Below are positions 7,987 through 26,862 of a stretch of 30,902 bases of DNA, in pieces. Positions within the stretch are counted from its first letter, which is position 1. Each line of letters opens with the position of its first letter. This DNA is from a virus: the IMG/VR virus record IMGVR_UViG_3300009370_000117, positions 1 through 30,902 of that record. One strand, 5' to 3'. The notes under the pieces are model-generated. The model worked only from the letters and a program-made list of their open reading frames with translations, did not search any database and was not told where the DNA came from. Made by a program: the position numbers and the translations under genes.

Positions 7987-7989
7987 ATC

Positions 7990-9317: not shown

Positions 9318-9329
9318 TGCGCCGACCAT

Positions 9330-9357: not shown

Positions 9358-9369
9358 TCGTGACAAACG

Positions 9370-9404: not shown

Positions 9405-9412
9405 CTTTGAAA

Positions 9413-9748: not shown

Positions 9749-9751
9749 CCC

Positions 9752-10234
9752 ATGGCCGCCACCGATCTTGACGACCTCCTTTCATTTGAGGCGCACTTTG
9801 AAAGCGCCGCCGCCACTTTCCTCAACACGGCCACCGGCTTGACCTGCACCCGCACGGCCAGCGAGGCCACGCTAACCTTGCCGCGCATTGAGGTGCGCCT
9901 TGACATGGGCGCCGCGATCGATCCCCCAGCGCCACGCAACGGGGGCGCCGCCCCCAATTCAATCGATTACCGGGCATTCAATGCGAGCTTCACGGCCGAG
10001 ATTGTCACCGATAACGCGGTTGGCCAATCAGCCAACATGGCCACGCACCGCACCAAGGTGCGCGTCGCCATGATGCGATCGGCAGATAATTGGGATTCAA
10101 CCACCCTCCCGTATTATGACATCAAGGATTTACGCGGCACAGGCGAGGAAATCATGGTCGATGAGGACTTGAATATTTCATCCCTGAATTATGCGGTAAT
10201 TTTTGAGATTCGTGACGATGCGTGGCCCGCGTAA
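9752..10234 (+). CDS. Tail terminator/completion protein (tentative)
   Basis: A 160-residue mixed alpha/beta protein directly before the tail-tube gene, the position of lambda gpU, whose ring stops tail growth and binds the head connector. An N-terminal helix (DLDDLLSFEAHFESAAATFL) leads into strands such as LTLPRIEVRLDM, and an ATHRTKVRVAMMRS strand-helix lies in the second half. ATG 9752 sits in a CC-ATGG context. The call rests on synteny and size. Confidence 0.5.
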   Translation: MAATDLDDLLSFEAHFESAAATFLNTATGLTCTRTASEATLTLPRIEVRLDMGAAIDPPAPRNGGAAPNSIDYRAFNASFTAEIVTDNAVGQSANMATHRTKVRVAMMRSADNWDSTTLPYYDIKDLRGTGEEIMVDEDLNISSLNYAVIFEIRDDAWPA

Positions 10235-10241
10235 GGGCGCC

Positions 10242-10266
10242 CGACTGAACGATTGGCCCATTGGTG
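10242..10266 (+). repeat. Start-associated linker, copy 3
   Basis: CGACTGAACGATT, then GGCCCA, then TTGGTG: the consensus form of the four copies. Unlike copies 1 and 2 no ATG follows at once. Its own GTG (10264) opens a 24-codon ORF. Confidence 0.8.
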
Positions 10267-10338
10267 AACAAGGCGGTGCTTTCCGCCTATGAGTTGAAAC
10301 AACCGACCCGCAAAAGCGGGGAAAAATCAAAGGCTTGA
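10264..10338 (+). other. Mini-ORF / structured leader of tail-tube gene
   Basis: From the GTG of linker copy 3 a 24-residue ORF (VNKAVLSAYELKQPTRKS...) runs to TGA 10336-10338, three bases before the ATG of the tail-tube gene. The same stretch holds two hairpins: AGGCGG/CCGCCT (10271-10276 with 10283-10288) and CCCGC-AAAA-GCGGG (10307-10320). It may be a leader peptide, a folded leader tuning a highly expressed gene, or simply a spacer. Confidence 0.4.
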
Positions 10339-10341
10339 ACA

Positions 10342-10710
10342 ATGGCAATTACCTCAGACGGAACCCAAAGTTTTGGAATCCAAGACTCGCCGGTGACAAT
10401 CAATTCCATTTCTTATGTTATGGAGAATGCAACTTTCACTTACGGATCAAACCGGGTGGATATAAACGACAGCAACGGCGAGCCTCTGGGCACCACGCTT
10501 GTCCCCAATCGCGTTGAGGGATCGGCAACCCTCCAATACTCGACCGACACCGCCGTTACCGCCCCCAACCCCTCGATCGGGCACGAGATGGTAACAAGCA
10601 CCACCAACGCCCGCAACAATTCAACCTATGTTTTGACCGAGGTTGGCGATGCCCAAACTCAAGGGGATTATGCGAAATGCTCAATTTCGTTCTATGAAAA
10701 AATAAACTAG
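10342..10710 (+). CDS. Major tail (tube) protein
   Basis: A 122-residue beta-rich protein between the terminator-like gene and the chaperone/tape-measure pair, where siphophages code the tube subunit. It begins with a strand-rich MAITSDGTQSFGIQD segment and includes NSISYVMENATFTYGSNRVDIN, GEPLGTTLVPNRVEGSATLQYS and a final strand YAKCSISFYEK. It is small for a tail tube, and no Ig-like extension is present. A 107-base structured leader with linker copy 3 lies upstream. Identified by position and strand pattern. Confidence 0.65.
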   Translation: MAITSDGTQSFGIQDSPVTINSISYVMENATFTYGSNRVDINDSNGEPLGTTLVPNRVEGSATLQYSTDTAVTAPNPSIGHEMVTSTTNARNNSTYVLTEVGDAQTQGDYAKCSISFYEKIN

Positions 10711-10717
10711 CGCGGCG

Positions 10718-11368
10718 ATGCTTTCCCGCGCTGAATTGTGGGAGCAATACAAACCCAAGCTCGCCGAGGCCAAGGAGTTTGACCGGCTTGAGGGAACGCT
10801 TGTTTTCCTTGCCCAACCGGCCAAGATCGGTCGGTTTAGGATTGCGCCCTTGACTCTTGAGCGCCTCCTGTGGCTTGAGGCGATTGACAGCCCATTTGTT
10901 GGGGCCGACAAGGCGCCCGGACGCATGGACGTGCTCAACCTGCTTTGGGTAATGTCGCCATACTTCCGCCCTGGCGGATGGCGGCGGCGCGTTTTTGTCA
11001 CCATCAACATAATCCTCAATTGGAAATGGTACGCGGTGGAAGTGGGTGAGCATTTCGCCGCGACAATGGAAATGCAATCAGCCAACCGGGCCGAGGCAGA
11101 TGGGGGAGAGGCATCACCAATGTGGGTGGCTCAAACATTGGACGGGTTTTGTTCTCAATACCATTGGCCCATGCGTGAGGTGCTCACTCTGCCCCTTTTG
11201 CAAATGAGCGTTTTGGCCAAGGCCATGGGCGTGCGGCTTTCAGAGGGAAAGGATACGGTTGCCTTCGGGCGCCACGCGGATCGGGCCAAGGCCGATTACC
11301 TCAAGAAAGTGAGCAAGATTGACGCCGCCGAAAGGGCCAACGGGAAACCAAAACCATGGCAAATCTAA
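10718..11368 (+). CDS. Tail assembly chaperone-like protein
   Basis: A 216-residue protein directly upstream of the tape measure, overlapping its start by 13 bases. In lambda this place is held by gpG/gpGT, which coat the tape measure during tail assembly. It is helical, with PAKIGRFRIAPLTLERLLWLEA (about 33-54) and a tryptophan-rich middle (LNWKWYAVEVGEH). I found no clear slippery site giving a gpGT-type frameshift product, so a single chaperone is assumed. The call is by position. Confidence 0.55.
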   Translation: MLSRAELWEQYKPKLAEAKEFDRLEGTLVFLAQPAKIGRFRIAPLTLERLLWLEAIDSPFVGADKAPGRMDVLNLLWVMSPYFRPGGWRRRVFVTINIILNWKWYAVEVGEHFAATMEMQSANRAEADGGEASPMWVAQTLDGFCSQYHWPMREVLTLPLLQMSVLAKAMGVRLSEGKDTVAFGRHADRAKADYLKKVSKIDAAERANGKPKPWQI

Positions 11369-14280
11369 AAAATGTCATCACCGCCGTGCTTGGCCTTGAT
11401 GCGTCGGGCATGAAGAAAGGCGCCAAGGATGCAGAGGGCGAACTGAGCAAACTAGGCAAGGCAACTCAAGCGGTTGGCAAGGCGGCCGCCGCCGCGTTTG
11501 CCGCCGCCGCCGCCGCCGTGGCCGCATTTGCCGCCGTATCGGTCAAGGAAATGATGGCATTCGATAAGGGCATGAAAGAGGTTTTCACGCTTTTGCCGGG
11601 CATCTCCAAGGGCGCCATGGGGGCAATGGAAAAAGACGCGCTCAAGCTTTCAAAAACCATGGGCTTTTTGCCAGAGGAGACGGTGCCAGCCCTTTACCAA
11701 GCATTGAGTGCGGGCGTTCCCAAGGGTAATGTTTTTGAATTCTTGGAGGTTGCCGGCAAGGCTGCCGTAGGCGGGGTGACATCTCTTGAGGTTGCCGTTG
11801 ATGGTATCACCTCGGTGGTAAACGCTTACGGATTGGAAACGATCTCGGCCGAGGAGGCAAGCGATGCCATGTTCACAGCGGTCAAGCTAGGCAAAACCAC
11901 CTTTGAAGAATTGTCGTCATCGATTGCCGTGGCCACCCCGATAGCAAAAGCGGCCGGGGTCAGCTTCAATGATTTGGCCGCAATGGCGGCTGCCCTCACC
12001 GCCAATGGTGTGCCCACGGCCGAGGCCATGACCCAAATTCGCTCGGCTATCTTGGCGATGAACACCCCCACCGAAGCGGGCTTGATGAAAGCCAAGGCGC
12101 TGGGGATAAGCTTTAAAGACATGGCAGAGGGAATCAAAAAGCCGGGGGGCGTGTTGAAAGTATTCCAGATGTTGAGGGAAAAAACCGGCGGCAATATTGG
12201 CGACATGAAAACGCTTCTCGGTCGAGTTGAGGCGGTGAATGCAGTTATGGGATTGACCGAGGGTGGCGGGAAAAAACTTGGGCACGCAATTGAGGAAATG
12301 GGAAAAAAGGCGGGCGCGAGCGGGCAAGCGTTCGGGACAATGGAGCTCTCTTGGTCGAGAGCTTTTGACAAAATGAAAGCCCGGCTCAAGGTTTTCATGG
12401 TAGAATTTGGGCAAAAACTCACCCCCATTCTGAAAGCAATTGGCCCGATCATCGATGAGGTTTTCAAGATGATTGAGGAGTTGCCTTGGCATGAGTTCAG
12501 CGATGCCATTAGTGATCTCGGCGAACAAATAAAAATTGCATTTAGTGGCGAGGGAAAGACCGCAATCAAGGACTTGGTTGATCTTGGATTTCAATTTTTA
12601 ATGTTATTGGTGAAAATGACCAAGGGCACGCTGGCCCTGTACAAAGGGCTTGCCGATGTGGGCGCCATTAAGTTTTTGATCGATATATTAAAGGATTTAT
12701 TTGCCATCATGGAGGCAATCATTGATGGATGGACAAAAATTGGCAGGGGCTTGTCTTGGTTGGCGGGGAAGGTCACCGGCGAGGCTGTCGCTTATGGGGA
12801 TGCGGTTGATTCCAAGATTGAGAAAATGCAGGAGCTTGATGCAAAGCAAAAGGAAATGGATCGGGAGAGTATCCGCCGCGAAAAAATGAAGAAAATGCGC
12901 GAGAGCAACGTGGCCCAAGTTGAGGCCGCCACCGCGATGTCATCAATCGAGGGGAAAAAGGAGTTGGCCAAATTTTTGCACTATCAGCTTGGAAGGAAAA
13001 TTTCTGTCTCAGAAATGATGCAGCTATATGAGTCGGGCGAACTTTCCAAGATGGAGGGAATGCAGGGGCAATCGATGGCGATGGTTGCCAGCGCGTTGGG
13101 CAAGCTCAAGGAGGTAGAAAGCAAGGAGGAGAAAAGCCTTGAGGCCAAGGGCCGGGAGATGGTGACCAAGATGGGGCTCACGCCTGCGATGGTTTTGGCG
13201 CTTCAAAAAACCCATGCCGTGGCCGGGGCAACCAACTTGCCTGAACTTTACAAGATGCTTGGGCGCGGCACTTTCACGCTTGAGAAAATGCTTGAGAATT
13301 CGTTTGGCAAAAGCCAAGCGCAAAGGATAGTTGCCATGGGCGCCAAGTTTGCCGAGCAACAACAATTCCTCAAGGAGTTGCAAAGCAAATCGTTGGCCAA
13401 GCTTGCCGAGAGCCTCGGCATGTCTGAGAAAGAAATGATTGCCGAATATAACGCCGGCCGAATTGGTGGGCCGGCCCGGCAAATCATAAGCCGCAAGCTC
13501 AATGAGCGCCTCGAAATCGAGCGCAAGATAATGGGCACGTCGAAGGCTGAAATCGAGGCACAGAAAAAGCGCGAGGAGATGCTAAAATTGCGCAATGCCG
13601 AGGAAGCAAAAAGGGCACAGGAGGAGGGCGAAAAGCGTGCCGAGATGTGGGAGAAGATGACCGAGGAGCAACGGCAAGCCGCCGAAACCCGGCCCGGTGA
13701 TTTTCAGAAAATCATTGATGAGCAAGTCGCCAGGACAAAGGGCGAGGGTGCCCAAGCGATGAAGGAGCAAACCGAGCAACAAGCCGCCGGCACCAAGGAA
13801 ACCGTCAAGGAGGTTGGCGCCGTTGGCGAGGCAGTCAAGGAGGGGGCAACCGAGGTGGCGGCCGCCGTGGGCGAGGTTGTGTTTCCCGATTGCGTCGCGC
13901 TTTGCGATGAGACAATTGAAAGGCTGGGTGCATATTTTGTGAAGGAAAAGGGCGGCGGGAAAATCGGGCCAAAAGACCCGCTGCCGTTTATGTTCCCCGG
14001 CCAAACAGGGTGGGAAATCAAGGAGGGTTTCAAGATTCCTAAATTTAGGGGCGGCGCCGCCGTGGGCGGGGCCATCGCCTTGACGCACGAGGAGAAGATG
14101 GCCTTGGGGCTGATTAAAAAGGAGGAGGGCGCCAAAAGAGTTGGCCATCAATTTGCCCCGCCACTATCATCAAGCGAAATGGCAACAAACCTCAAGGCGG
14201 CATTCACCTCAATTCATAACATTGACCGAAACATTGCCGCCATCGAAAAGCGGTTGCGCGGCTGCATCACCAACCAGTAA
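11356..14280 (+). CDS. Tail tape measure protein
   Basis: A 974-residue tape measure, which sets tail length and is ejected before DNA. The N-terminus has a LDASGMKKGAKDAE segment and an Ala-rich helix (about 38-58). Residues about 75-330 match the TP901-type tape-measure core (PETVPALYQALSAGVP, MFTAVKLGKTTFEELSSSIA, VSFNDLAAMAAALTANG, LGRVEAVNAVMGLT). Hydrophobic helices follow at about 410-460, then long charged coiled coils to about 870. With roughly 0.15 nm per residue, as in other siphophages, the tail would be near 145 nm. By length it is the largest protein in the window. Confidence 0.92.
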   Translation: MANLKNVITAVLGLDASGMKKGAKDAEGELSKLGKATQAVGKAAAAAFAAAAAAVAAFAAVSVKEMMAFDKGMKEVFTLLPGISKGAMGAMEKDALKLSKTMGFLPEETVPALYQALSAGVPKGNVFEFLEVAGKAAVGGVTSLEVAVDGITSVVNAYGLETISAEEASDAMFTAVKLGKTTFEELSSSIAVATPIAKAAGVSFNDLAAMAAALTANGVPTAEAMTQIRSAILAMNTPTEAGLMKAKALGISFKDMAEGIKKPGGVLKVFQMLREKTGGNIGDMKTLLGRVEAVNAVMGLTEGGGKKLGHAIEEMGKKAGASGQAFGTMELSWSRAFDKMKARLKVFMVEFGQKLTPILKAIGPIIDEVFKMIEELPWHEFSDAISDLGEQIKIAFSGEGKTAIKDLVDLGFQFLMLLVKMTKGTLALYKGLADVGAIKFLIDILKDLFAIMEAIIDGWTKIGRGLSWLAGKVTGEAVAYGDAVDSKIEKMQELDAKQKEMDRESIRREKMKKMRESNVAQVEAATAMSSIEGKKELAKFLHYQLGRKISVSEMMQLYESGELSKMEGMQGQSMAMVASALGKLKEVESKEEKSLEAKGREMVTKMGLTPAMVLALQKTHAVAGATNLPELYKMLGRGTFTLEKMLENSFGKSQAQRIVAMGAKFAEQQQFLKELQSKSLAKLAESLGMSEKEMIAEYNAGRIGGPARQIISRKLNERLEIERKIMGTSKAEIEAQKKREEMLKLRNAEEAKRAQEEGEKRAEMWEKMTEEQRQAAETRPGDFQKIIDEQVARTKGEGAQAMKEQTEQQAAGTKETVKEVGAVGEAVKEGATEVAAAVGEVVFPDCVALCDETIERLGAYFVKEKGGGKIGPKDPLPFMFPGQTGWEIKEGFKIPKFRGGAAVGGAIALTHEEKMALGLIKKEEGAKRVGHQFAPPLSSSEMATNLKAAFTSIHNIDRNIAAIEKRLRGCITNQ

Positions 14281-14285
14281 ACGCC

Positions 14286-15086
14286 ATGGCAATCACCTTT
14301 GACGCCCCCTCTACGAATTGGCAAACCGAGACAATCACCACCACCGAGCCGCGTGTTGATTATCCGATCCCCCAAAATACCTCGGCCATTTTTTATGAGG
14401 TTGATGTGGTCATCAACGAGGGGGATTTTTTCCAAACTTCCCTTGATACGGTCATGGCATCAACCACGCTCGATGGGGGGATCACTTCGGCCACCACCAC
14501 CGTTGCCGTTGATTCAACCTCTGGGTTTCCTCATGCGGGCAGTTTCAAGGTTGGTTCTGAGGAGGTGCCCTATACGGGAAGAACCGCAACAACCTTCACG
14601 GGTTGCACGGTGGTGGGCTCTCATTCAGACGGCGCAAATGTTTACTCGGTTGCCTATTTGGTTGAGGAGACATCACCGCGCAAGCTAGGCGGTGAAATGG
14701 TTGAGTTTACCCGGCGATACTCTACCGTGCCCAATTCTTGGTATGATTATAGTGAGGCGGTTTTTCAATTTCCCGGGTACTATGCGGTGCCGGCAGATAC
14801 CAACTACCGCGCCCCCCAAAACCTAAACTCAACAATCAGAACCACCGCCGACTATGCGTTGACCACCGACCCTGAAACCGACTTGACGGTGGCCAACCAA
14901 ATGTTTCGATCAATTGACAGTGGCGAGGCGGTGCTTGATAAGGTTGACGATTCAAGCACGCCAACATACTCGACCTATACCGGCTATGTCAGCGGCGGAA
15001 CTTATATTTATGCCGCACAATCGACGCTTGAAAGATTTGCCGGCAATATCTGGGTGCGGTACGAGCACCAAACGGTTGCTCAATAA
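14286..15086 (+). CDS. Distal tail / virion structural protein
   Basis: A 266-residue beta-rich protein between tape measure and fibre. Residues about 60-120 form a module seen in virion proteins, with TSATTTVAVDSTSGFPHAG, GSEEVPYTGRTATTFTGC and SHSDGANVY. The flanking parts are strand-rich and tyrosine-rich. It may be the distal tail or baseplate piece that holds the fibre. It starts in CC-ATGG five bases after the tape measure and ends two bases before the fibre gene. A precise role cannot be assigned. Confidence 0.55.
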   Translation: MAITFDAPSTNWQTETITTTEPRVDYPIPQNTSAIFYEVDVVINEGDFFQTSLDTVMASTTLDGGITSATTTVAVDSTSGFPHAGSFKVGSEEVPYTGRTATTFTGCTVVGSHSDGANVYSVAYLVEETSPRKLGGEMVEFTRRYSTVPNSWYDYSEAVFQFPGYYAVPADTNYRAPQNLNSTIRTTADYALTTDPETDLTVANQMFRSIDSGEAVLDKVDDSSTPTYSTYTGYVSGGTYIYAAQSTLERFAGNIWVRYEHQTVAQ

Positions 15087-15088
15087 AG

Positions 15089-17617
15089 ATGCCCCTCGTT
15101 CCAAAAGAGTCTATGTCCAGCGCCGCCGGCCGGCGCGGGAATAACCCGGCCGCTTCGCGCCTCGGGCAAGCCGTCGATTTTGTCATCAACGGGATTGCCT
15201 TTCCAAAGCTTCCGAGTTTCAAGAAAGGAACCTGCCCCACCCTGCTTGATGCGATCGAGGCGCAAAAAGTTAAGATGTTCATTGAGAACATTCTTTTCAA
15301 TACAGCGGGCCGCGTGGTGACCGGCTCGCCCCAGCGCAACCGCGCAGAGTTGGTTTTTACCCCCGACGGGAATTTTGTTGAGCTTTGGTTGCAAACTGAT
15401 TTGCGCTGGGACAGCGCACCCATGCTGTCGGCTGACCTCAACACAAATGGCAAGGTCATATATGCGCCGCAATTTGATTTATACCTAACGACAACTGTCG
15501 CGGGCACCGTTACAATCCAAAACACGGCGGGAGGGAGTGGGGTCTTGACCCTTGGGCGCGGTATGCCGGGAACCCGCAACCCCGGCACCCATCACGCCTC
15601 AAATTCATCCCCCGACGACACGACGTATTTTTGGCCAAACGATGGGAGCAACGGGCAGGTATTAACTACTGACGGCAACGGCAACCTTTCATGGGGAGCG
15701 GGCGGGAGCGGTGCCCCAACGGATGCAACCTATGTGGTAATGAGCGCAAGCGGCGACTTGAGCGCCGAGCGTGTCCTGACGGCGGGCTCGGGAATTAGCA
15801 TAACCGACGGTGGCGCCAATTCAACGGTGACGATCGCAGCAACGGGCGGCGGCGGGGGGATGACATCTTTTGAGGTAGATGGTGACAGTGGGCCGGCCCA
15901 AACTATTGAAGATGGCAACACGCTTTTCATCCTTGGGGGAACCGATCTGGCAAGCGTTGCAAGCGCAACCGACACAATCACGCTCAACCATTCCGCCAGC
16001 GGTGTATCTGCGGCAACTTTTGGGGATGCGTCAAACGTCGCCCAAATTGCCGTAAATGCACAAGGGCATATCACAAGCGCGAGCGAGGTGGCGATTTCGG
16101 GCCTTATCACGCAGGGGGAGGCGTTAAATTCGGCAGGCTCGCAGATGGCCTTGATTACATGGGCAGATGCAACACCCGGACGGATAACATTAAAGCAGGG
16201 GAAAAACATCACTATGGCCGGAGCTTCCGGCATAATGGAAATTGGCAACACGCACACCACTTTTGGGATCATGGGCGAGCTTTCGGGGCCAATATATGTC
16301 GATTTTACGACCACAAGAGCAACGGTTCGCCTTACTGGCGGCACCCGATACACTGGCGTGCCTTCATTCATTACAACGGGTGGCCCCGTCAACAATACGG
16401 CAGGCAGCATCGATGTTGTAGATCAACCGATTTACATCTCATACAACGCCGCGATTGTTCCAAACGTCTCCGACGGCGCAGGTGGGTGGAATCAGATTTA
16501 CGGCACGTCGGCGGATGCAAACCAATGGTTTATATACGCGGGCACAGGAATCACGGTAACGGGCGGTGGGGGTGCAGGGAATTCAATAAACATTTCCGCT
16601 GACAACAACGGCACCGTCACCTCAATTGAATGCGCCAACGACGGGACATTTATTGATCTCACAGGAGGCACAATCACATCCTCGGGAACCATCCGCGCTG
16701 ATTTAAGCGCGACGGGCACCGCATCCTCCTCAACATTTTTAAGGGGCGACAATACATGGGCCGACCCCGGCGCGGCTGGCATGACCTCCTTTGATTTGGA
16801 TGGCGACTCGGGAACCACCCAAACGGTTGAGGACGGCAACACCGTAACCCTGGCGGGAGGCAATGGACTCGATTCTGTGGCCAGCGCAACCGATACAGTC
16901 ACCTTTGCGATTGATGACACGGTGGCACAGTCAATTGATATTTCAGCCGACGGCGGCACAGCATCGGGGGATGGCACAGTAAATTTTGATAATTTTGTTT
17001 CCGCAAATTCCGTGGGCCTTGTCGCGGGCGACAACGTGACAATCACGGGAAGCAATTCAGCCGGCACAGTAAAGATTGAAGCGGCAAGCGGCGGGGGGGG
17101 CGGCGGTGCCCCAACGGATGCGAGTTATGTAACGTTGGGAGTCAATGGGACGTTAACCAATGAGCGTGTCTTGACTGCGGGCACAGGCATTTCCCTCACC
17201 GACGGCGGCGCGGGGTCGACGGTGACAATTGCCGCGACGGGCGGCGGGGGAGGCGGCCCGGGGGCAACCGAGCTAACGTCTGGAACATCCCACACGGCGA
17301 CCGCAACCGATGACCATATTTATTGGCTAAATCAAAGCGGACTGAGTGGCACTTTCACCCTCACCCTGCCCTCTGCCTCAAGCGTGGGCGGGGTCACGTA
17401 TAGATTTTATGCATTGGAGGCTAATTGGGAAACGTTTAAGGTTGCCGCCGCCGGGTCGGATGTGATCTTTGATAATTACGATGAAATTAACAATGCCACG
17501 GGAGGATTGAGTGCGATTGAAACCGCATATACATGGATTTCAATTGAGATGACCAGCGACGGCGACGCGGCTTGGGTGTCCTCATCCTATCATGACGGTT
17601 ACTGGTATTCCTCCTAA
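15089..17617 (+). CDS. Large repetitive tail fibre
   Basis: An 842-residue Gly/Thr/Ser-rich fibre likely to bind the host. Residues 1-150 form a distinct base domain (DFVINGIAFPKL, then a strand-rich part). NGQVLTTDGNGNLSW (about 189-203) is a common phage-fibre motif. Two pairs of modules are duplicated: TDA(T/S)YV...ERVLTAG(S/T)GIS near 15710-15855 and again 17104-17250, each ending in a Gly run; and MTSF(E/D)...EDGNT...SVASATDT near 15859-15990 and again 16780-16915. The C-terminus (about 740-842) lacks glycine repeats and may be the receptor-binding tip. The stop overlaps the next start (TAATG). Confidence 0.8.
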   Translation: MPLVPKESMSSAAGRRGNNPAASRLGQAVDFVINGIAFPKLPSFKKGTCPTLLDAIEAQKVKMFIENILFNTAGRVVTGSPQRNRAELVFTPDGNFVELWLQTDLRWDSAPMLSADLNTNGKVIYAPQFDLYLTTTVAGTVTIQNTAGGSGVLTLGRGMPGTRNPGTHHASNSSPDDTTYFWPNDGSNGQVLTTDGNGNLSWGAGGSGAPTDATYVVMSASGDLSAERVLTAGSGISITDGGANSTVTIAATGGGGGMTSFEVDGDSGPAQTIEDGNTLFILGGTDLASVASATDTITLNHSASGVSAATFGDASNVAQIAVNAQGHITSASEVAISGLITQGEALNSAGSQMALITWADATPGRITLKQGKNITMAGASGIMEIGNTHTTFGIMGELSGPIYVDFTTTRATVRLTGGTRYTGVPSFITTGGPVNNTAGSIDVVDQPIYISYNAAIVPNVSDGAGGWNQIYGTSADANQWFIYAGTGITVTGGGGAGNSINISADNNGTVTSIECANDGTFIDLTGGTITSSGTIRADLSATGTASSSTFLRGDNTWADPGAAGMTSFDLDGDSGTTQTVEDGNTVTLAGGNGLDSVASATDTVTFAIDDTVAQSIDISADGGTASGDGTVNFDNFVSANSVGLVAGDNVTITGSNSAGTVKIEAASGGGGGGAPTDASYVTLGVNGTLTNERVLTAGTGISLTDGGAGSTVTIAATGGGGGGPGATELTSGTSHTATATDDHIYWLNQSGLSGTFTLTLPSASSVGGVTYRFYALEANWETFKVAAAGSDVIFDNYDEINNATGGLSAIETAYTWISIEMTSDGDAAWVSSSYHDGYWYSS

Positions 17618-17796
17618 TGAGCAAAGAGTTAGCAGAAAAGTTTTTGGATGGCGACGACAGCGTTGCCAGTAAAATCCCCCTCAAAGATTTCTTGTGGGCG
17701 GTGCGGCAAAACCCCAAGCGTGCAAGCAAGGAATACCGGCGCCGGGGAAAGGCTGGAAAGCTGCCCAAAAGGAAGGGCCGCAAGCGGGTCAACTGA
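17617..17796 (+). CDS. Small basic protein
   Basis: A 59-residue ORF starting in TAATG with the fibre stop. The first half is acidic and helical (MSKELAEKFLDGDDS...), the second half strongly basic (KEYRRRGKAGKLPKRKGRKR). It ends inside linker copy 4, the linker supplying its TGA. There is no family match. It may bind nucleic acid or assist the fibre. It is accepted for tight coupling and a clear reading frame. Confidence 0.5.
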   Translation: MSKELAEKFLDGDDSVASKIPLKDFLWAVRQNPKRASKEYRRRGKAGKLPKRKGRKRVN

Positions 17797-17814
17797 ACGA
17801 TTAACCCAATGGTG
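17790..17814 (+). repeat. Start-associated linker, copy 4
   Basis: CAACTGAACGATT, then AACCCA, then ATGGTG: the most diverged copy, with four differences from consensus. Its ACTGA contains the stop of the preceding gene, and ATG 17818 follows three bases after GGTG. Confidence 0.75.
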
Positions 17815-17817
17815 AGT

Positions 17818-18033
17818 ATGGAGTTGGGCCAAATATTGCAAAGCGTGTTGACCATAGCGGTGGCGGTCTTTGGTTTCTTTTTCAAGAAACTATTTGACCA
17901 ACTTGAGGAAGGCGCCCGGCGCATGACAAAAATGGAAAAGGAAATATCACGACAAAAACAGCAAGCCGATGACCTTGATGGCCGGCTTGATCGGATCGAG
18001 GCAAAGCTTGATCGGTTATTGGAGCGCGACTAA
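17818..18033 (+). CDS. Single-TM coiled-coil protein, possible holin partner
   Basis: A 71-residue protein with one hydrophobic helix (about residues 5-24, LQSVLTIAVAVFGFFFKKLF from its QI) and then a charged coiled coil (MTKMEKEISRQKQQADDLDG, ending LDRIEAKLDRLLERD). Small one-TM coiled-coil proteins of this kind are common in phage lysis regions. ATG 17818 is preferred because it lies just after linker copy 4; ATG 17809 is in frame and would add three residues. It opens the lysis-like gene block. Confidence 0.6.
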   Translation: MELGQILQSVLTIAVAVFGFFFKKLFDQLEEGARRMTKMEKEISRQKQQADDLDGRLDRIEAKLDRLLERD

Positions 18034-18242
18034 TGGACACTCACACGGCAGCAACTTTTTTTATTGGCTTCACAATCGGCGCCGGCGTTATGTTTTCGGT
18101 GGTCGTCATTGGTTACCTCCTGAGAAAATTTGCCGCTTCGGCCGAGGCCGACGCATTGATTTACAACCTCACCGCACAATTGCGGGAGGATGTGAAACCC
18201 GAACCAAAGAAAAAAAATGTTAGACGAAAAACAAAAAAATAG
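18033..18242 (+). CDS. Small membrane protein in lysis block
   Basis: A 69-residue protein starting in TAATG with its neighbour. One transmembrane segment (FFIGFTIGAGVMFSVVVIGYLL, about 9-30) is followed by a helix and a Lys/Arg-rich tail (EPKKKNVRRKTKK) that should stay in the cytoplasm. It has i-spanin-like topology without the long periplasmic part, or could be a holin/antiholin component. It overlaps the next gene by 26 bases. Confidence 0.5.
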   Translation: MDTHTAATFFIGFTIGAGVMFSVVVIGYLLRKFAASAEADALIYNLTAQLREDVKPEPKKKNVRRKTKK

Positions 18243-18435
18243 CAGAGGCATCCGCACAAGCGAGTGGTGGCTAACCCTGGCGGCTTCATTGATCGGCTTG
18301 GCCGTGATGGCCGGGTGGATCAATCCCGAGGGCGTGAGCACCATTGACAAAATCAGCGGCATGGCCATGGCCGGCCTTGCGGCGCTGGGCTATCAAGTTA
18401 GCCGAGGCTTGGCCAAGGGATCAAAAAAGGATTAA
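18217..18435 (+). CDS. Putative holin
   Basis: A 72-residue protein with two hydrophobic segments (WWLTLAASLIGLAVMAGWI, about 17-35, and ISGMAMAGLAALGYQVS, about 46-62), a short loop between them and a basic end (KGSKKD). That is a class II-type holin shape: it would hold, then permeabilise, the inner membrane at lysis time. It is in an overlapping run of small membrane genes followed by a spanin-like pair. No family motif is certain. Confidence 0.5.
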   Translation: MLDEKQKNSRGIRTSEWWLTLAASLIGLAVMAGWINPEGVSTIDKISGMAMAGLAALGYQVSRGLAKGSKKD

Positions 18436-18594
18436 ATGCTCGCGGCCTTTTTCAAGGCATTGTTGGAAATCATCACCGAGTTGATAAAGGGTGAAGTCAA
18501 AAAAGACATCAAGGCCACCGACGCCGCCACTCCCCCTCAAACTTTGCGCGATCGTTTTCGCCGCAAGCTTGAGCGCCAGTTGCGCGACAAGTAA
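18436..18594 (+). CDS. Small amphipathic protein hosting a nested gene
   Basis: A 52-residue ORF beginning at the base after the preceding stop. It has an amphipathic N-terminus (MLAAFFKALLEIITELIKGE) and an Arg/Lys-rich end (ATPPQTLRDRFRRKLERQ). Small proteins with a similar TP-x-x-LRDR tail are frequent beside phage lysis genes. From 18491 a second reading frame starts inside it and encodes the lipoprotein, as in lambda Rz/Rz1. It lacks a clear transmembrane helix, so it is not a standard i-spanin. Confidence 0.5.
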   Translation: MLAAFFKALLEIITELIKGEVKKDIKATDAATPPQTLRDRFRRKLERQLRDK

Positions 18595-18778
18595 AGTGGT
18601 CTTTGTGGATACTTCACCCGACTCGGGGATGGTGCGCTTGGCTGACGACGTGCGCGGCCATGTGTTTTACTATTCCAAAGAAGGCGAGTGGATTCGATCC
18701 CGCAACAAGGTTACCTTGCCCGAGGGATGGTTTGCCGGCGGCATAAACCTCAACGATAATAACACGACAACCCCATGA
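18491..18778 (+). CDS. Lipoprotein, o-spanin-like, in an overlapping frame
   Basis: A 95-residue protein starting at GTG 18491 inside the previous gene. It has a basic, proline-rich start (MKSKKTSRPPTPPLPLK), a hydrophobic stretch and a lipobox-like LSASC, so the mature N-terminus should be an acylated cysteine. The mature part (VRLADDVRGHVFYYSKEGEWIRS, cut here) resembles small phage lipoproteins found next to holins. It is probably an outer-membrane lysis protein, as Rz1 is. A serine at -3 makes the lipobox imperfect. Confidence 0.6.
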   Translation: MKSKKTSRPPTPPLPLKLCAIVFAASLSASCATSKVVFVDTSPDSGMVRLADDVRGHVFYYSKEGEWIRSRNKVTLPEGWFAGGINLNDNNTTTP

Positions 18779-18897
18779 TTAGATCATTTATTCTCAAGCT
18801 CATAATGTATTTTGTGGTTATCGGCTTGCCGGTTTCCTTCATCGCCTTTCTTGTGCTCGGTTGCGTTTGGCTGGGTAAACAAATATTTGCAGGCTGA
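18775..18897 (+). CDS. 40-residue single-TM protein
   Basis: It starts in an ATGA overlap with the lipoprotein stop. MIRSFILKLIMYFVVIGLPV leads into SFIAFLVLGCVWLGKQIFAG: nearly all hydrophobic, with a positive N-terminus and Lys near the C-terminus. It is the last gene of the lysis-like block, just before a strong terminator. It may be a holin accessory or lysis regulator; no family is recognised. Confidence 0.5.
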   Translation: MIRSFILKLIMYFVVIGLPVSFIAFLVLGCVWLGKQIFAG

Positions 18898-18903: not shown

Positions 18904-18983
18904 GGGGCATCCAACCCAAGGCGAGTCGGCCCGGGAGACCGGGCCGGCTTTCCTTGTGTACACAATTGGCCCGAGGATGCCCC
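18904..18983 (+). terminator. Late-operon terminator inside a larger inverted repeat
   Basis: CGGCCCGG (18927-18934) and CCGGGCCG (18939-18946) pair around a GAGA tetraloop and are followed by GCTTTCCTT: an intrinsic terminator for the rightward late operon. It is enclosed by a perfect 9-base inverted repeat, GGGGCATCC (18904-18912) and GGATGCCCC (18975-18983). A further pair, GGCCCG/CGGGCC (18968-18973 with 18987-18992), overlaps it and could form an alternative fold. Confidence 0.75.
18954..18965. promoter_or_regulatory. Perfect 12-base palindrome (operator-like)
   Basis: TTGTGTACACAA is a perfect dyad immediately after the terminator stem and about 140 bases upstream of the strong promoter. 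It may be a repressor site or part of the terminator tail. No second copy was noticed. Confidence 0.35.
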
Positions 18984-19104
18984 ACACGGGCCCGGCGGCC
19001 GGTTTGACCATGGTTTTGGTGGTATTGACACCCGGTTGATTGCGGGGCAATTGTGGGCCGGTTTGTGGGGGCAAAATTATTTTCACTTTTTTTCAATTTA
19101 GGGG

Positions 19105-19133
19105 TTGACTGCATAGCGGGTATGCACTATAAC
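19105..19133 (+). promoter_or_regulatory. Strong sigma70-type promoter with operator in the spacer
   Basis: TTGACT (19105-19110), exactly 17 bases, then TATAAC (19128-19133). Between the boxes lies TGCATA-GCGGG-TATGCA (19110-19126), a perfect 6-base dyad with a 5-base centre. A repressor bound there would block polymerase. Transcription should start about 19140-19141, at or next to the ATG at 19141, so the first mRNA may be leaderless. It drives the small-gene operon and probably int. Confidence 0.8.
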
Positions 19134-19140
19134 TACACCC

Positions 19141-19386
19141 ATGACAGAGAACACGACAACAAAAACCACCGGCCAAACAATCACCATCAAGGGCATTAAC
19201 TACATCATCGAGCAAGTGATGACCCCGGCCGGCCACCGCGCCGAGGGCCGCAACAATGTCGCCGCCAGCCGCGAGAGCAACAACATTGCCGCTGACTTGG
19301 TGGTGCGCCGCCCGGCCGGGGCAAAGTTGCATCTTGTTTACCAAATGGCCAACACCGGCGGCCTAATTTACATTATGAGCTTTTAG
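19141..19386 (+). CDS. Small early protein, first gene after promoter
   Basis: An 81-residue protein with a Thr-rich start (MTENTTTKTTGQ) and a beta-rich body (TITIKGINYIIEQV, DLVVRRPAGAKLHLVYQ, GGLIYIMSF). There is no family I recognise. It is probably the first and most strongly transcribed early gene, starting 8 bases after the -10 box and lacking a Shine-Dalgarno. This position suits a host-takeover or anti-defence protein, but that is inference only. Confidence 0.65.
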   Translation: MTENTTTKTTGQTITIKGINYIIEQVMTPAGHRAEGRNNVAASRESNNIAADLVVRRPAGAKLHLVYQMANTGGLIYIMSF

Positions 19387-19395: not shown

Positions 19396-19433
19396 CAACC
19401 AACCAAAACCAAAACACACACGACAATGAAAAA
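19396..19433 (+). repeat. A/C-rich start-region repeat, copy 1
   Basis: This leader is nearly free of G and T and ends in AAAACACACACGACA followed by ATGAAAAA. The last 23 bases (19411-19433) are repeated exactly at 19672-19694, again across a start codon. The part CAACCAACCAAAACCAAA (19396-19413) is a perfect complement of 30551-30568. An unstructured A/C leader can load ribosomes without Shine-Dalgarno pairing. Confidence 0.8.
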
Positions 19434-19650
19434 CAGAATTGCAAAAACAAAATACCACCGGGCACTTTCGGAGAATCTCACGCCGGGCACCGAGTTTCTC
19501 GGCCGCCGATATGTACTTGGCCGCCAGATTCACAAGGTGCTTGCGGGCCATCGTTGGCGCGTCACCAAGCGCGACAAAGGCACCGTCTCCCTCGAGAAGA
19601 TCGTAGGCACAATGTGCGCCCCAACACACGTTATCCTTGAGCTTGTTTGA
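19426..19650 (+). CDS. Small basic protein flanked by start-region repeats
   Basis: A 74-residue, positively charged protein with TPGTEFLGRRYVLGRQIHKV and a WRVTKRDKGTVSLEKIVG stretch, predicted as small beta barrel plus helix. There is no known family. Its start region and the start region of the next gene share 23 identical bases, so this gene sits as a cassette of 261 bases between direct repeats. It may be a recent insertion or duplication product. Confidence 0.65.
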   Translation: MKNRIAKTKYHRALSENLTPGTEFLGRRYVLGRQIHKVLAGHRWRVTKRDKGTVSLEKIVGTMCAPTHVILELV

Positions 19651-19659
19651 TTTTAACAA

Positions 19660-19694
19660 AAACCAAAACCAAAAACACACACGACAATGAAAAA
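19660..19694 (+). repeat. A/C-rich start-region repeat, copy 2
   Basis: Second copy of the A/C-rich leader; 19672-19694 equals 19411-19433 over all 23 bases, including ATGAAAAA. The upstream part (AAAACCAAAACC) differs from copy 1 by one extra A. Confidence 0.8.
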
Positions 19695-20019
19695 TATTAG
19701 AGACTACACCGCAAAAATCAGCCGCAACAAACGGGGCGCCCGCGTATGGATGCAAGCCAAGTGGCTAACCGAGGCCGGCTTTGGGATCGGGCAAGAGTAT
19801 TCGGTTGAGTATGCACCCGGCAAGGCCATCATCACGGTGGGGGGGAAAAGTCAACCGCTTGAAACGCGCCGCCCTTGGATTTCCCGCAAGGTGGCCGTTG
19901 GCCATGGCCGCCCCATCATTGACCTCATCTCGGCAGAATTCACCAAGGTGATGGGCTCGGCCACGGCCGCCCACGTCATTGCAACCCCCGGCAAAATCAC
20001 CGTAACCGCAAAGGCTTAA
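19687..20019 (+). CDS. Double SymE/AbrB-like domain protein
   Basis: A 110-residue protein with two similar halves. Residues about 15-50 (WMQAKWLTEAGFGIGQEYSV, then GKAIITV) match the WL-x-x-AGF-x-x-G pattern of SymE/AbrB-type folds. Residues about 62-108 (RRPWISRKVAVGHGRPIIDL... GKITVTAKA) form a second unit. As I recall, this pair is found fused in front of some phage C5-cytosine methyltransferases; here it stands alone, 9 kb from the methyltransferase at 28790. It probably binds nucleic acid or assists the methyltransferase. The last codons lie in a 20-base repeat. Confidence 0.6.
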   Translation: MKNIRDYTAKISRNKRGARVWMQAKWLTEAGFGIGQEYSVEYAPGKAIITVGGKSQPLETRRPWISRKVAVGHGRPIIDLISAEFTKVMGSATAAHVIATPGKITVTAKA

Positions 20020-20024
20020 TCATG
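20005..20024 (+). repeat. 20-base gene-junction repeat, copy 1
   Basis: ACCGCAAAGGCTTAATCATG covers the last codons and stop of one gene, the spacer and the ATG of the next. It is repeated exactly at 20328-20347, so the 106-residue gene between is a 323-base unit flanked by direct repeats. Confidence 0.85.
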
Positions 20025-20342
20025 GCATTCATTGACCAGATTGAAACAGAGAAAAAGCGCCACGCCGAGCTTGATGCGGCCACCGTTGGCCTTGCCGCTC
20101 TTTTTGGCGACTTCATGCATACAAGCAAGGTGGCCTTGTCGGCGGCCGAGCCCCCACCGCGCTTGCGGTTTGAGGTATGCACCGGGCGCCGCATGTTTGT
20201 GATGTGGGCCACCGATCGCAAGGAGGCATACAAGGATGCGTGCGCCTTGAAAGGGCTTGCGCCCGGCTCACCCTTTCCCGGCTCAATCAAGCAAAGAGAG
20301 AGGGGCAAAGCGGCAATTTACAACATCACCGCAAAGGCTTAA
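20022..20342 (+). CDS. Unknown 106-residue protein
   Basis: A helical start (MAFIDQIETEKKRHAELDAA) is followed by an alpha/beta part with RLRFEVCTGRRMFVMWATDR and ending YNITAKA. There is no recognisable family; the RKEAYKDACALKG helix may be part of a small binding domain. It is unusual because the whole gene is bracketed by exact 20-base repeats that carry its own ATG and that of the next gene, and its C-terminal TAKA matches that of the preceding protein through the repeat. Confidence 0.65.
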   Translation: MAFIDQIETEKKRHAELDAATVGLAALFGDFMHTSKVALSAAEPPPRLRFEVCTGRRMFVMWATDRKEAYKDACALKGLAPGSPFPGSIKQRERGKAAIYNITAKA

Positions 20343-20347
20343 TCATG
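20328..20347 (+). repeat. 20-base gene-junction repeat, copy 2
   Basis: Exact second copy of ACCGCAAAGGCTTAATCATG; it ends in the ATG of the gene at 20345. Confidence 0.85.
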
Positions 20348-20707
20348 CACCCCGACCACAAAATCAAAGACCCCGGCACCCCCGGCTCGATTGGTGCTTG
20401 CGGGCACTCGATCACCCGTTTGCTTTCCATGGTTGAGGAGGGCGATGGCACCATCACGCTCGACCTCAAGGCGGCGCATGACATCTACTTGCTCGCACGC
20501 CTTGGCATGGATCGCCTCACCCTAAATGATTGCCGGCTAACGGCCAAGCACGGCAAGGCCATGCCGGCCAGCCTCAAGCAAACCCGCGAGGAGGATGCGG
20601 CCACCCTCACGGCCATGGCCAACAAGATCAAGGAGGCCAGCGCCGGCGCCCTTGAGTATGGGCCAACCCGCGCCATCATCCCGGCACCCAAGGAGGGCAA
20701 AGCATGA
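20345..20707 (+). CDS. Unknown 120-residue helical protein
   Basis: ATG 20345 was chosen because it lies in the junction repeat and the upstream part of the open frame overlaps the previous gene. It has a mostly helical composition, with GHSITRLLSMVEEGDGTITL, AAHDIYLLARLGMDRLTLND and a Lys-rich end. No family is recognised. Its TGA overlaps the ATG of the next gene, so the two are co-translated. Confidence 0.65.
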   Translation: MHPDHKIKDPGTPGSIGACGHSITRLLSMVEEGDGTITLDLKAAHDIYLLARLGMDRLTLNDCRLTAKHGKAMPASLKQTREEDAATLTAMANKIKEASAGALEYGPTRAIIPAPKEGKA

Positions 20708-20943
20708 TGACCCTCTCAGGCATGACCCCGCCGCCACCGGGCATGGTTTACCGCAAGCCCGGCGAGCGAGTCATCCTTGATGGCCACGAGTTTGAGGTTG
20801 TGCGCGTCACCGAAAGCTCGGCAACATGCCGCATGGCGGGCACGCGGCAACGATCATTCACCGACGTGCGCACCGGCAAGCTTGTGGAATTCACCGCCCC
20901 ATATTCCCGCGTTGCCCACATCACCGCAACCCGCGAGCGTTAA
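20704..20943 (+). CDS. Unknown 79-residue beta-rich protein
   Basis: It starts in an ATGA overlap. A proline-rich beginning (MTPPPPGMVYRKPGERV) leads into strands ILDGHEFEVVRVTESSATCR and RQRSFTDVRTGKLVEF. It resembles small SH3-like or beta-barrel phage proteins but has no definite family. It ends two bases before the metallopeptidase-like gene. Confidence 0.6.
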   Translation: MMTLSGMTPPPPGMVYRKPGERVILDGHEFEVVRVTESSATCRMAGTRQRSFTDVRTGKLVEFTAPYSRVAHITATRER

Positions 20944-21429: not shown

Positions 21430-21906
21430 GATATGACAAGGTTTCCCGACCCTCCAAAAACTATGTCAGCAAAGCTTGAGAGACTAGAAGTGCCCATGGC
21501 CTCGTCTACTCACCACGGGATTTGGGGGCGAGAGGGGTGAAAAAGAGCACAAACATTTGCACCCGTTTTTTGATCACGGTGGCGCCCGGGCAACAATTCC
21601 CGTTTTATAACGGGAAAACCGCCCGCGCCACCGCCTTCTCAACTCCCGACCTTTGCACCCCCAGTAAGGCGCACCCCGCAAACCCGTTTTGCGGTTTCCC
21701 GTTGGGTTTTGCGTTTCGCGCCGACCCCATTGGGCACAACTCAACATTACCCCCGAAATCAATGCGACCATGGGCGACCATGGGCGACCATTTGGGGCAC
21801 AAACGCTTGCACTGGTTTTTTGAGAGCGGGGCACAACATTGGGCGAATTGTGGGCGCAATTCACCAGCGACAAATCACGACAACAACACGACAACAAAGG
21901 AGCAAC
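21430..21906. other. Candidate attP / integrase arm-site region
   Basis: This 477-base stretch has no convincing gene and many repeats. Two 33-base copies (21548-21580 and 21797-21829) agree at 26 positions, sharing GCACAAAC, TTGCAC and GTTTTTTGA. TTTGCACCC recurs at 21557 and 21652. There is a hairpin TTCCCGTT-TTAT-AACGGGAA (21597-21616) and three tandem GCGACCAT-type decamers (21764-21793). Such arm-like repeats next to int fit an attachment site; no tRNA-like segment was found. The integrase Shine-Dalgarno AAAGGAG is at the end. Confidence 0.5.
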
Positions 21907-23274
21907 ATGGCACGGCACGACATTACCAAGAACATCATCAAGCATCATGGGCGCTATCATTTGCGCAAGATGCTACACGGCGAGCATCATCTTGTGGATT
22001 TGCACACCATGAGCTTGCGCACGGCCAAGGCAAGAGCCCGGGCCGAGTGGCGCGACATACTCAACCGCGAGGCCAACGGCGGCATCGCCAAGGCCAAGGC
22101 ATACCGATCGGTGCCCACGTTGGGCGAGGTTTCCAAGGTTTACCTCGCCGCGACCGTTGGCCCCAAGGCCGTAACGCGCCGGCACAACCTGTATTGCTTG
22201 CGCCGGCTGGCCGTTGATGTGCTCGGCATCACCCACGCCGCCGCCGACAAGATGCGTGTAAATGAGGTGGCCAACGTTGACTTGCTGGCGGCTTGGATCA
22301 ATCAACGCAAGGCCACGCCGCCCAAGCTATCAAGGCACGAGGCGGCCACGCGGGCACCCCATGAATTGAGCAAGCCGGGGCGCCTAACCCCGTATGATCT
22401 CAACACGGTGCTCATTACGATTGAGGGCGCCATCAAGCACGCCCGAGGCGTTTTTTCGGAGCGATCAATGCACAAGGATTTTGGTTGTTTGCGCAATTTC
22501 AACATCCCCGATCTTGGCGGATTTATGTCGCTGCCGTTGCCCGAGTACGAGGCCCGCATCTATCGGCCACCCTCACCCGAGGAGATAGGCCGCGTGATCG
22601 AGGCGTTGCCGGCCCTTGAGGAAAAGAGCCCGGCGGTGTTTGTGGCGATCCTCTTGGGCATCGGCCTCGGCTTGCGGCGCGGGGAAATTCAACATGCGCG
22701 CTGGTCAATGATTGAGTGGGTTGAGGGCATCCCCGTGCTTGTGATCGGTGCCACGCATGATTGGGCCGGAACCAAAGGCAAGCACGAGCGGCGGGTAGAG
22801 ATCGCGCCAAGCGTTTATCGTAAGCTGATCGAGCACAAGGGCAACGAGACTTTTATTGTGCCCGATGCCCGGGGGGATGATGCAAGCGTGCGGCCAGCCG
22901 ACAACCGGCCACGTTTCCAAGGGCGCACAAAGAAACGCGCCGCCCTGGCGACTGGCAAAACAAGCCCCGACTCATACCGCAAGAGCACAAGCGGCACTTG
23001 GGGGCTTGCTTGTGATTGCGGCCGGTGGCTCAAATCGATCGGGTGGGTGCGGCGCCAAAAGCTTCACGAGATGCGCAAATATTTTGGGGCGATCGTTTGC
23101 ACCGAGGCCGGCATTTATGCGGCCAAGGAATTGCTTGGCCATCAAGACATCAAGACCACCCGCGACTCATACGCCGGATTGGTTGAGCGCGTACAATTCA
23201 CGGGCGCCCTTGACTCGGCGCTCAAGCTCAAGGCAAAGGGCAACGGCAAGACACGCAAGCGCCGCGCCGGTTGA
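21907..23274 (+). CDS. int: Tyrosine-family integrase
   Basis: A 455-residue site-specific recombinase that would insert the phage into, and help remove it from, the host chromosome. The N-terminal part (1-70) is arm-binding-like; residues about 71-190 form the core-binding domain; the catalytic domain follows with R257 (LGLRRGEI), a beta-hairpin lysine near 290-292 (GTKGKHERRVEI), H387-x-x-R390 (LHEMRKYFGA), H412 (LLGHQD) and nucleophile Y422. All catalytic residues are present. ATG 21907 has AAAGGAG before it; the open frame continues upstream to 21709 but that part is in the repeat region. The C-terminus is basic (NGKTRKRRAG). Confidence 0.93.
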   Translation: MARHDITKNIIKHHGRYHLRKMLHGEHHLVDLHTMSLRTAKARARAEWRDILNREANGGIAKAKAYRSVPTLGEVSKVYLAATVGPKAVTRRHNLYCLRRLAVDVLGITHAAADKMRVNEVANVDLLAAWINQRKATPPKLSRHEAATRAPHELSKPGRLTPYDLNTVLITIEGAIKHARGVFSERSMHKDFGCLRNFNIPDLGGFMSLPLPEYEARIYRPPSPEEIGRVIEALPALEEKSPAVFVAILLGIGLGLRRGEIQHARWSMIEWVEGIPVLVIGATHDWAGTKGKHERRVEIAPSVYRKLIEHKGNETFIVPDARGDDASVRPADNRPRFQGRTKKRAALATGKTSPDSYRKSTSGTWGLACDCGRWLKSIGWVRRQKLHEMRKYFGAIVCTEAGIYAAKELLGHQDIKTTRDSYAGLVERVQFTGALDSALKLKAKGNGKTRKRRAG

Positions 23275-23500: not shown

Positions 23501-23710
23501 ATGGAAACCCCCACCCCTCTTGATGATCTTGCCCTTGTGACCAAGGCCCGCGCCGCCGATTTGCTCTCGGTAACAGTGCGCACCGTTGAGCGCATGGTTG
23601 AGAGTGGCGATTTGCAAAAAATAGTTTTGAGGCCCAAGGCGGTGAGGATCACCACGGCGAGCCTCAAGGAAATAATCCAACCGACAACAAAAGGAAAAAA
23701 CCAATGCTAA
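23501..23710 (+). CDS. Excisionase-like HTH protein
   Basis: A 69-residue MerR/HTH_17-type DNA-binding protein: LVTKARAADLLSVTVRTVER (about 10-29) is the helix-turn-helix and KIVLRPKAVRITTASLKEII the wing. Proteins of this size and fold next to a tyrosine integrase usually act as excisionase (Xis), bending attP/attL to drive excision; some act as regulators. ATG 23501 was chosen since the frame upstream lies in the leader. It overlaps the SSB gene by seven bases. Confidence 0.75.
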   Translation: METPTPLDDLALVTKARAADLLSVTVRTVERMVESGDLQKIVLRPKAVRITTASLKEIIQPTTKGKNQC

Positions 23711-25687: not shown

Positions 25688-25777
25688 CCTCTTTCCATGT
25701 GTAATTACACGTAGAATCCATGTGGAAAATTCCATCCTCTTTCCATGTGTAATTACACGTAGAATCCATGTGGAAAA
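25688..25777. repeat. Twin 42-base palindromic direct repeats
   Basis: Two exact 42-base units (25688-25729 and 25736-25777, period 48). Each holds the perfect palindrome GTGTAATTACAC (25699-25710 and 25747-25758) and is bounded by TTTCCA and TGGAAA, an outer inverted repeat. It has the form of a cooperative protein-binding site: an operator for the replication operon, a partition-like site or a second replication element. It forms the only gap of any size in the 24-30 kb gene run. Confidence 0.85.
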
Positions 25778-26017: not shown

Positions 26018-26862
26018 CCTATCGAGTCAGGGATTGGGCCGAGCTTTATGAAACGGCCAGCACGCGCAAGCGGCGCCAATTGGGGTGGGTGCTCATTCCC
26101 AACCGCCATGATTCTCTTGGGTACAATCAGTTGATCTCCCGCCCCGATGGGCTTGAGATGTTTGCGGCGTGGGTTTTGATTCTGCAATGCGCCAGCCGAT
26201 GCCCCGAGCGTGGGTTGCTCGTGTCGGATACCGGCAAGCCTTACACCGCGCAAGACATCGCTGCAAAAACCCGGGCACCCGTTGACAAGATTGAGGTGGC
26301 CTTTGCGGCGCTGGTGGAAATCGGTTGGCTTGAATCTGCCAACAAGGTGGCACGCCGTGCCAACAAGGTGGCAGATGATGCCAACAAGGTGGCAGATGAT
26401 GCCAACAAGGTGGCAGATGATGCCAACAAAGTGGCAGATGATGCCAACAAGGTGGCACGGTCTGCCACTTTGTCAGGATCAATGCTGCCACTTTGTCAGG
26501 ATGAAGAAAGAAAGAAAGAAAGGGAGAAAGAAAGAAAGAAAGCCCCCCTTACCCCCCAAGGGGAATTGGGGGAGGGGGATTTTGATTCCTCTCTTTTTAG
26601 CGATCCCGAGTTTGTGCGCATGTGGGCGGCTTGGCTTGACCATAACAAGGACAAGGGGCAGCCCCTAACGTCAGCCCGCCAAATTGCTCACATTGAGGCT
26701 CTTGAGAATTCAACCCCCACCGAGGCGGTGGCCCGCTTGCAGCTTTCCATTGCGAGAAATTGGCAAGCGCCGGCCAAGGCCGAGGAGGAACCACCCAGCA
26801 CCCGCGAGCGCCCAAGGGACAACACCGCGCTCATTGAGGAGCTCACCAAAGGCTTGCCATGA
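26014..26862 (+). CDS. Replication initiator with embedded heptad repeats
   Basis: A 282-residue protein. Residues 1-108 look like the winged-helix N-domain of phage replication initiators/replisome organisers (LGWVLIPNRHDSLGYNQLIS, FAAWVLILQCASRCPERGLL, and a helix-turn-helix ending VEIGWLES). Residues about 109-150 are six copies of ANKVADD-type heptads, encoded by 21-base DNA iterons. A charged Lys/Glu run follows, and residues about 190-250 form a C-terminal helical domain like the helicase-loading part (FVRMWAAWLDHNKDKGQ). This parallels lambda O, whose gene contains the origin. ATG overlaps the previous stop. Confidence 0.75.
   Translation: MTYRVRDWAELYETASTRKRRQLGWVLIPNRHDSLGYNQLISRPDGLEMFAAWVLILQCASRCPERGLLVSDTGKPYTAQDIAAKTRAPVDKIEVAFAALVEIGWLESANKVARRANKVADDANKVADDANKVADDANKVADDANKVARSATLSGSMLPLCQDEERKKEREKERKKAPLTPQGELGEGDFDSSLFSDPEFVRMWAAWLDHNKDKGQPLTSARQIAHIEALENSTPTEAVARLQLSIARNWQAPAKAEEEPPSTRERPRDNTALIEELTKGLP
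26337..26541. other. Candidate replication origin (iterons plus purine tract)
   Basis: Six tandem 21-base units start at 26337, 26358, 26379, 26400, 26421 and 26442, each beginning TGCCAACAA(G/A)GTGGCA, so that neighbouring TGGCA and TGCCA form dyads. Two inverted part-copies TGCCACTTTGTCAGGAT follow (26463-26479 and 26486-26502), their first 11 bases being the complement of the iteron core. Next comes an A/G-only tract to 26541 that could unwind. The order matches the lambda-type origin inside gene O. Confidence 0.65.

Follow-up and report, generated by a model that had tools for sequence, protein, structure and literature searches.

A putative palindromic operator within an early promoter of an uncultured phage and its covarying counterparts in related phages

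Genome setting and the early promoter

The window analysed here comprises all 30902 bases of an IMG/VR virus record. A nearly identical contig, G001, continues from the right end of the window into its left end, and the distance spanning the junction, taken between two points common to both, is 739 nt in G001 and 751 nt in the window. As G001 bridges the window ends, the genome was regarded as circularly permuted and about 30.9 kb in size. All assigned genes point in one direction, with late genes at 150-18897 followed by a hairpin, a promoter and the early genes. The hairpin (18927-18946, plus strand), which separates the last late gene from the early promoter, is G+C-rich and terminator-like, with an 8-bp stem and a short T run 3' of the stem, and generated no strong match in a terminator scan. 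The 81-aa gene 1 (19141-19386, plus strand) is the first gene after the late genes and this hairpin, in support of the preliminary description of this DNA, which had placed the first early gene at the promoter. Further small early genes on the same strand follow at 19426-20943 (74, 110, 106, 120 and 79 aa). The 110-aa product of early gene 3 (19687-20019, plus strand) is SymE-like (SymE_toxin, E = 1.2e-5, just under the Pfam curated cut-off), and this toxin likeness is one to an AbrB-like fold family. A tyrosine-recombinase integrase is encoded at 21709-23274 (plus strand; phrog_1, E = 4.9e-23; start codon uncertain), and the early region further encodes an HTH_17/excisionase-like protein, an exonuclease, a replication initiator and a cytosine methyltransferase. 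A terminase query of genome_contigs, by sequence and by alignment, found neither a prophage nor a host.

Elsewhere in the window, about 260 bp of TTTG/TTTTG low-complexity repeats (30586-30850) separate the gene for a 151-aa protein from the terminase genes close to the permuted junction, and the replication-initiator-like gene carries 21-bp in-frame repeats (ANKVADD; 26316-26478). An intergenic region (25688-25777) contains, with the palindromic GTGTAATTACAC, two identical copies of a 42-bp direct repeat that are 48 bp apart and are possibly iterons or protein-binding sites. In the related phage G007 (see below), the 3' half of a tRNA lies next to int, in a piece (L055:1-120, minus strand) identical to G007 just 5' of the integrase gene. 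Its anticodon loop reads TTACGGA, it ends in CCA, and by eye it is probably Arg-ACG; this half is likely the attP core of G007. ARAGORN found no whole tRNA on the L055 piece, and no tRNA 3' half of the G007 type was found in the window.

The sequence at 19105-19133 reads TTGACT GCATAGCGGGTATGCAC TATAAC, that is, a -35 box (19105-19110) and a -10 box (19128-19133) on the plus strand, spaced by 17 bp, with the perfect dyad TGCATA-GCGGG-TATGCA between them (19110-19126, centre G19118), as the preliminary description had given them to the exact letter. The dyad takes in the final base of the -35 box and stops 1 base short of the -10 box. Directly 5' of the -35 box lies an A/T-rich tract (19073-19100, plus strand) that may act like an UP element. 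Only two sites in the 30.9 kb, at 19105 and 14914, are within two mismatches of TTGACA-(16-18)-TATAAT; the latter is within a coding region, and the former is the only intergenic one. A stock promoter scan skipped the 19105 site because it requires T as the last -10 base. Possible extra operators upstream (18992-19002, CCGGCGGCCGG; 19039-19051, ATTGCGGGGCAAT) were not above background, and no match to known RNA families was found.

The dyad by itself is weak evidence. A perfect dyad with 6-bp arms occurs in about 2% (1.9%) of random 24-mers of the window genome, and the window contains 15 GCGG-centred places that pair at no fewer than 6/8 positions (scored as described below) and two GCGG[C/G]-centred places that pair at 7/8. 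Outside evidence was therefore needed for an operator claim, and was sought in related phages.

Related phages and covariation of the operator arms

A terminase search yielded 28 loci, to which a query with the 81-aa protein added G029. Terminase identities to the window were 62% for G010, 64% for G029 and 64% for G007. In G010, the sequence 5' of the homolog of the 81-aa protein (41% identical) is TTGGAC-16-TATACT-8 nt-ATG, with the spacer palindrome ACGAGGC-G-GCCTCGT, and this cassette occurs five times, each time before a different ORF, one copy being degenerate. G029, whose homolog is 50% identical, carries three copies of its cassette; in one, TTGACA-17-TATGCT-9 nt-ATG surrounds GGCAAGCGGCTTGGC, and the other two have the -10 box TAGAGT. 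The G010 and G029 dyads have the GCGG core of the window and different arms. A/T tracts comparable to that of the window lie 5' of the -35 box in the cassettes of G010, G029 and G020.

G007 carries near-copies of the window operator itself. Those 5' of its first two early genes read TGCACAGCGGCTATGCA and, in opposite orientation, TGCATAGCGGCCATGTA; the two genes are non-homologous to those of the window, yet the operators occupy the same genome position. Close to the contig end, 13 nt separate a third site, TGCATAGCGGCTAAGAA, from an ATG, and this site may be inside a longer reading frame. In all, three G007 sites differ from the window operator by at most three mismatches, against an expectation of 0.04, and randomised sequences gave at most 1 in 100. 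Several operator copies per genome were thus found in G007, G010 and G029, and one copy in the window. The whole-promoter pattern generated no match in viral_contigs. The operator consensus TGCAYAGCGGSTATGCA matched four stretches there, two of which were G007 or its identical twin; the other two were one coding sequence and were judged to be chance matches.

Similar short-leader arrangements of boxes and ATG were also observed. G020 (L035, minus strand, starts 2256 and 3462) has TTTACA-17-TATATT/TAGATT-6 nt-ATG before two different ORFs, which share the first codons MLNGTN, and shows no clear GCGG dyad. The viral contig L056 (8382-8419) has TTGACC-17-TATATT-6 nt-ATG with a GCGGC-centred dyad pairing at 6/8 positions before an ORF beginning with MTRTNNTTEG, and is a possible further case of the cassette. 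Short hairpins such as CCCTGAAAAAACAGGG were seen 5' of G029 and G010 cassettes (L050, approximately 5899-5948, 7356-7405 and 8709-8758; L048), and are maybe terminators insulating each unit.

For comparison of the arms, dyads were aligned on the central G and eight positions were scored for pairing, the outer six being used for an arm swap. Among these phages, of which few are independent, and with copies within one phage not independent of each other, the best copies of the three arm types paired at 7/8 positions and lesser copies at 5-6/8; two of the three G029 copies and two of the five G010 copies reached only the latter. In the arm swap, the outer pairs matched at 6/6, 5/6 and 5/6 positions with their own partner, and at 1-3/6 with a partner from a foreign phage. 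In a control set of approximately 65 viral sites with the same boxes, a GCGG core and a nearby ATG, mostly 2-4/8 positions were paired; the maxima were 6/8 in the L056 contig and 7/8, a value reached only by G029. An ordinary promoter whose spacer is palindromic by accident would agree with the background of dyads in random 24-mers and of GCGG-centred places given above, but the dyad recurs in the early promoters of three relatives with its half-sites matched, while the control set is at chance level, and we regard such an accident as very improbable. Judged from the sequences compared, the combination of promoter, dyad and recurrence with covarying arms is far beyond chance. The promoter with an operator in its spacer, as first proposed, is supported by this recurrence, and the covarying sites of the relatives make the reading of the palindrome as a putative operator convincing.

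Covarying arms around constant central bases also form a stem-loop-like pattern, as would be seen if transcription started further upstream and the palindrome folded in the mRNA before the ATG, controlling translation by itself or via a protein. The dyads indeed fold with a GCGG-containing loop, at -4.9, -6.5 and -7.9 kcal/mol for the window, G010 and G029. However, in all three the dyad is bracketed by good -35 and -10 boxes with the spacing of a promoter, copies 2 and 3 of G029 keep the boxes and the distance from -10 to ATG with the dyad largely lost, and no better promoter was found upstream. In addition, one of the G007 operators is inverted, as would suit a site that is bound as DNA. An RNA hairpin was considered improbable, and the palindrome is treated below as a DNA site.

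Start of transcription and candidate regulators

The ATG of gene 1 (19141) comes 7 nt after the -10 box, and the distance from -10 to ATG is 7-9 nt in eight cassettes of three phages (the window, G010 and G029), or nine when the degenerate G010 copy is counted. Given the usual spacing from -10 to +1, transcription is predicted to start at 19139-19142 (plus strand), where A19141, the A of the ATG, is the sole purine. From the -10 box to the point where the 81-aa protein becomes conserved, no other in-frame start was found. The mRNA of gene 1 is predicted from this spacing to start on the ATG and to be leaderless or nearly leaderless. A leaderless mRNA had been proposed in the preliminary description, and a very short or absent leader is supported by the distances in the eight cassettes; the accompanying argument, that gene 1 has no Shine-Dalgarno sequence, carries little weight because only 9 of 40 listed starts, some of them approximate, have one. 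Leaderless starts are not shared by all of these phages, as the genes of G007 have longer leaders that contain AGGA. Genes 2 and 3 of the window have near-identical A/C-rich leaders (19396-19433 and 19657-19694) that end with ACACACACGACAATGAAAAA and contain no Shine-Dalgarno sequence, and similar AACC-rich leaders were observed in G010 and G029.

The model of the 81-aa protein (pLDDT 87) is small and SH3-like and contains no HTH, the fold name being tentative as the best Z, 5.7, is too low. A search among phages and plasmids found no homologs of this protein. Autoregulation by the product of gene 1 is unlikely, since the G010 and G029 homologs are 84% identical though the operator arms of these phages differ, and since its model lacks an HTH. 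The absence of a typical repressor gene, remarked on at the outset, was borne out: none of the 71 early-region ORFs on both strands matched a CI/Cro/S24-type repressor in Pfam or PHROG. The only HTH matches in the early region were HTH_17, in the excisionase-like protein (23501-23710, plus strand), and a weak one in the 151-aa protein (29908-30363, plus strand). The HTH_17 gene is located directly after int, with a like gene in the same place in G007 and G010, and its product is named here, tentatively and with considerable doubt, as the first candidate for operator binding. The 151-aa protein, conserved in G007 and G010, is a second candidate with a poor model (pLDDT 60); it is disfavoured because G007 clusters with G010 by this HTH but with the window by the operator.

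That no phage repressor was recognised among the 71 ORFs would also fit control of the promoter by a host regulator, such as host LexA or another transcription factor, in place of a phage repressor. E. coli symE is LexA-controlled, and a symE relative is present in the early operon; the LexA version of this explanation calls for a host LexA motif like TGCATAGCGG. On the other hand, variation of the arms between related phages and several copies per phage are features seen more typically with phage-specific repressors. Host control was regarded as unlikely, and a phage-encoded repressor is preferred in what follows.

Proposed mechanism and relation to known systems

As read from the boxes, the dyad, its recurrence, the covarying arms and the short distance from -10 to ATG, 19105-19133 is probably a sigma70-type early promoter with a palindromic operator and a repressible, leaderless or nearly leaderless start; from the same features we infer its activity, its repression, its start site and the kind of protein that binds it. 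The promoter would drive the early operon, with the spacer palindrome as its operator. A dimeric DNA-binding protein, more likely encoded by the phage than by the host, would occupy the operator and block RNA polymerase, so that expression of the early genes would be lowered in the lysogen or at a late stage of infection. Transcription would begin at the ATG of gene 1 or no more than about 2 nt away from it. In the relatives, an A/T tract, a -35 box, a GCGG-centred palindrome, a -10 box and an ATG after 7-9 nt would serve several early genes in the same manner, and arms that differ between phages would be expected of different repressor specificities. The distance from the core to the -10 box varies by cassette (10, 10, 7 or 3 nt); blocking of polymerase fits this variation better than activation does, and activation in place of repression is disfavoured accordingly. 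The integrase makes lysogeny plausible, the phage being probably temperate, and the promoter may, as had been supposed, be the main lysis/lysogeny switch; early/late feedback control would give the same sequence picture.

The closest precedent in anatomy is the ESAS of cluster K mycobacteriophages. In TM4 and Adephagia, ESAS consist of SigA-type -35 and -10 boxes spaced by 17-18 bp together with an imperfect inverted repeat of 15-17 bp; they are dispersed before non-structural (early) genes, the repeat consensus varies by subcluster, and the binding protein is not known (PMC3203893, PMC11373665). The window element likewise has a promoter with an inverted repeat of this size. In contrast, ESAS are followed by a 13-bp SAS close to the start codon, whereas here the ATG follows the -10 box after 7-9 nt; the SAS GGGATAGGAGCCC is absent at the window start codon, with one 2-mismatch match elsewhere at chance level. 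ESAS also occur in several copies per genome and the window element in one, and cluster K phages carry a recognisable, oppositely transcribed repressor, while none was detected among the 71 early-region ORFs of the window.

The cI/cro region of PY54 has mapped leaderless mRNAs of switch genes, an A/T-rich UP-like element and a palindromic operator with specificity determined by its outer base pairs (PMC4488713). The window resembles it in the predicted leaderless start, the UP-like tract and a palindromic operator with putative specificity in the outer pairs, but neither cI nor cro was detected, and the operator lies in the spacer whereas OR3 of PY54 lies some 40 bp from the cro promoter (PMC4488713). 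CI/Cro-like genes beside the operator, as in a lambda-type immunity region, were not found among the 71 early-region ORFs. In acr promoters, which drive small early genes, an inverted repeat between -35 and -10 is bound by an HTH dimer, Aca or AcrIIA15, that blocks RNA polymerase and represses the promoter (PMC10901769). The window has the same placement of an inverted repeat in a promoter for small early genes; unlike acr operons, it has no Aca-like HTH gene adjoining the first small genes, no HTH match being found before the integrase, and no evidence of an anti-CRISPR. The -35 and -10 hexamers, with a spacing within 16-18 bp, lie directly 5' of early genes, and the palindromic operator overlapping the boxes is conserved or covarying in the relatives. 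As a defining feature is missing for each of the ESAS, PY54 and acr types, the element was filed only as an operator-controlled phage early promoter. Taken as such, a real regulatory element of an ordinary kind, a putative palindromic repressor operator within an early promoter, is well supported.

Of greatest interest are the leaderless start cassettes that occur in several copies in the relatives, the covarying operators being also notable. Several of the G010 and G029 copies (5 + 3) include the first codons and stand before otherwise unrelated ORFs. It is conceivable, though doubtful, that the A/T tract, operator, -10 box, ATG and first codons form a duplicating start cassette whose arms diversify around GCGG as an immunity series, read by a repressor class missed by domain models. 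If this is true, the phages may acquire new early genes by fusing them to an existing start that is repressible and leaderless. The repeated cassettes of G010 and G029 would then illustrate how early genes can be added to a phage under control that is already in place. The protein that binds the operator, once found, could define a repressor class overlooked by domain searches. For this uncultured phage group, represented by metagenome contigs only, the gain would be a readable and testable regulatory code, with one operator type per phage ahead of its early genes.
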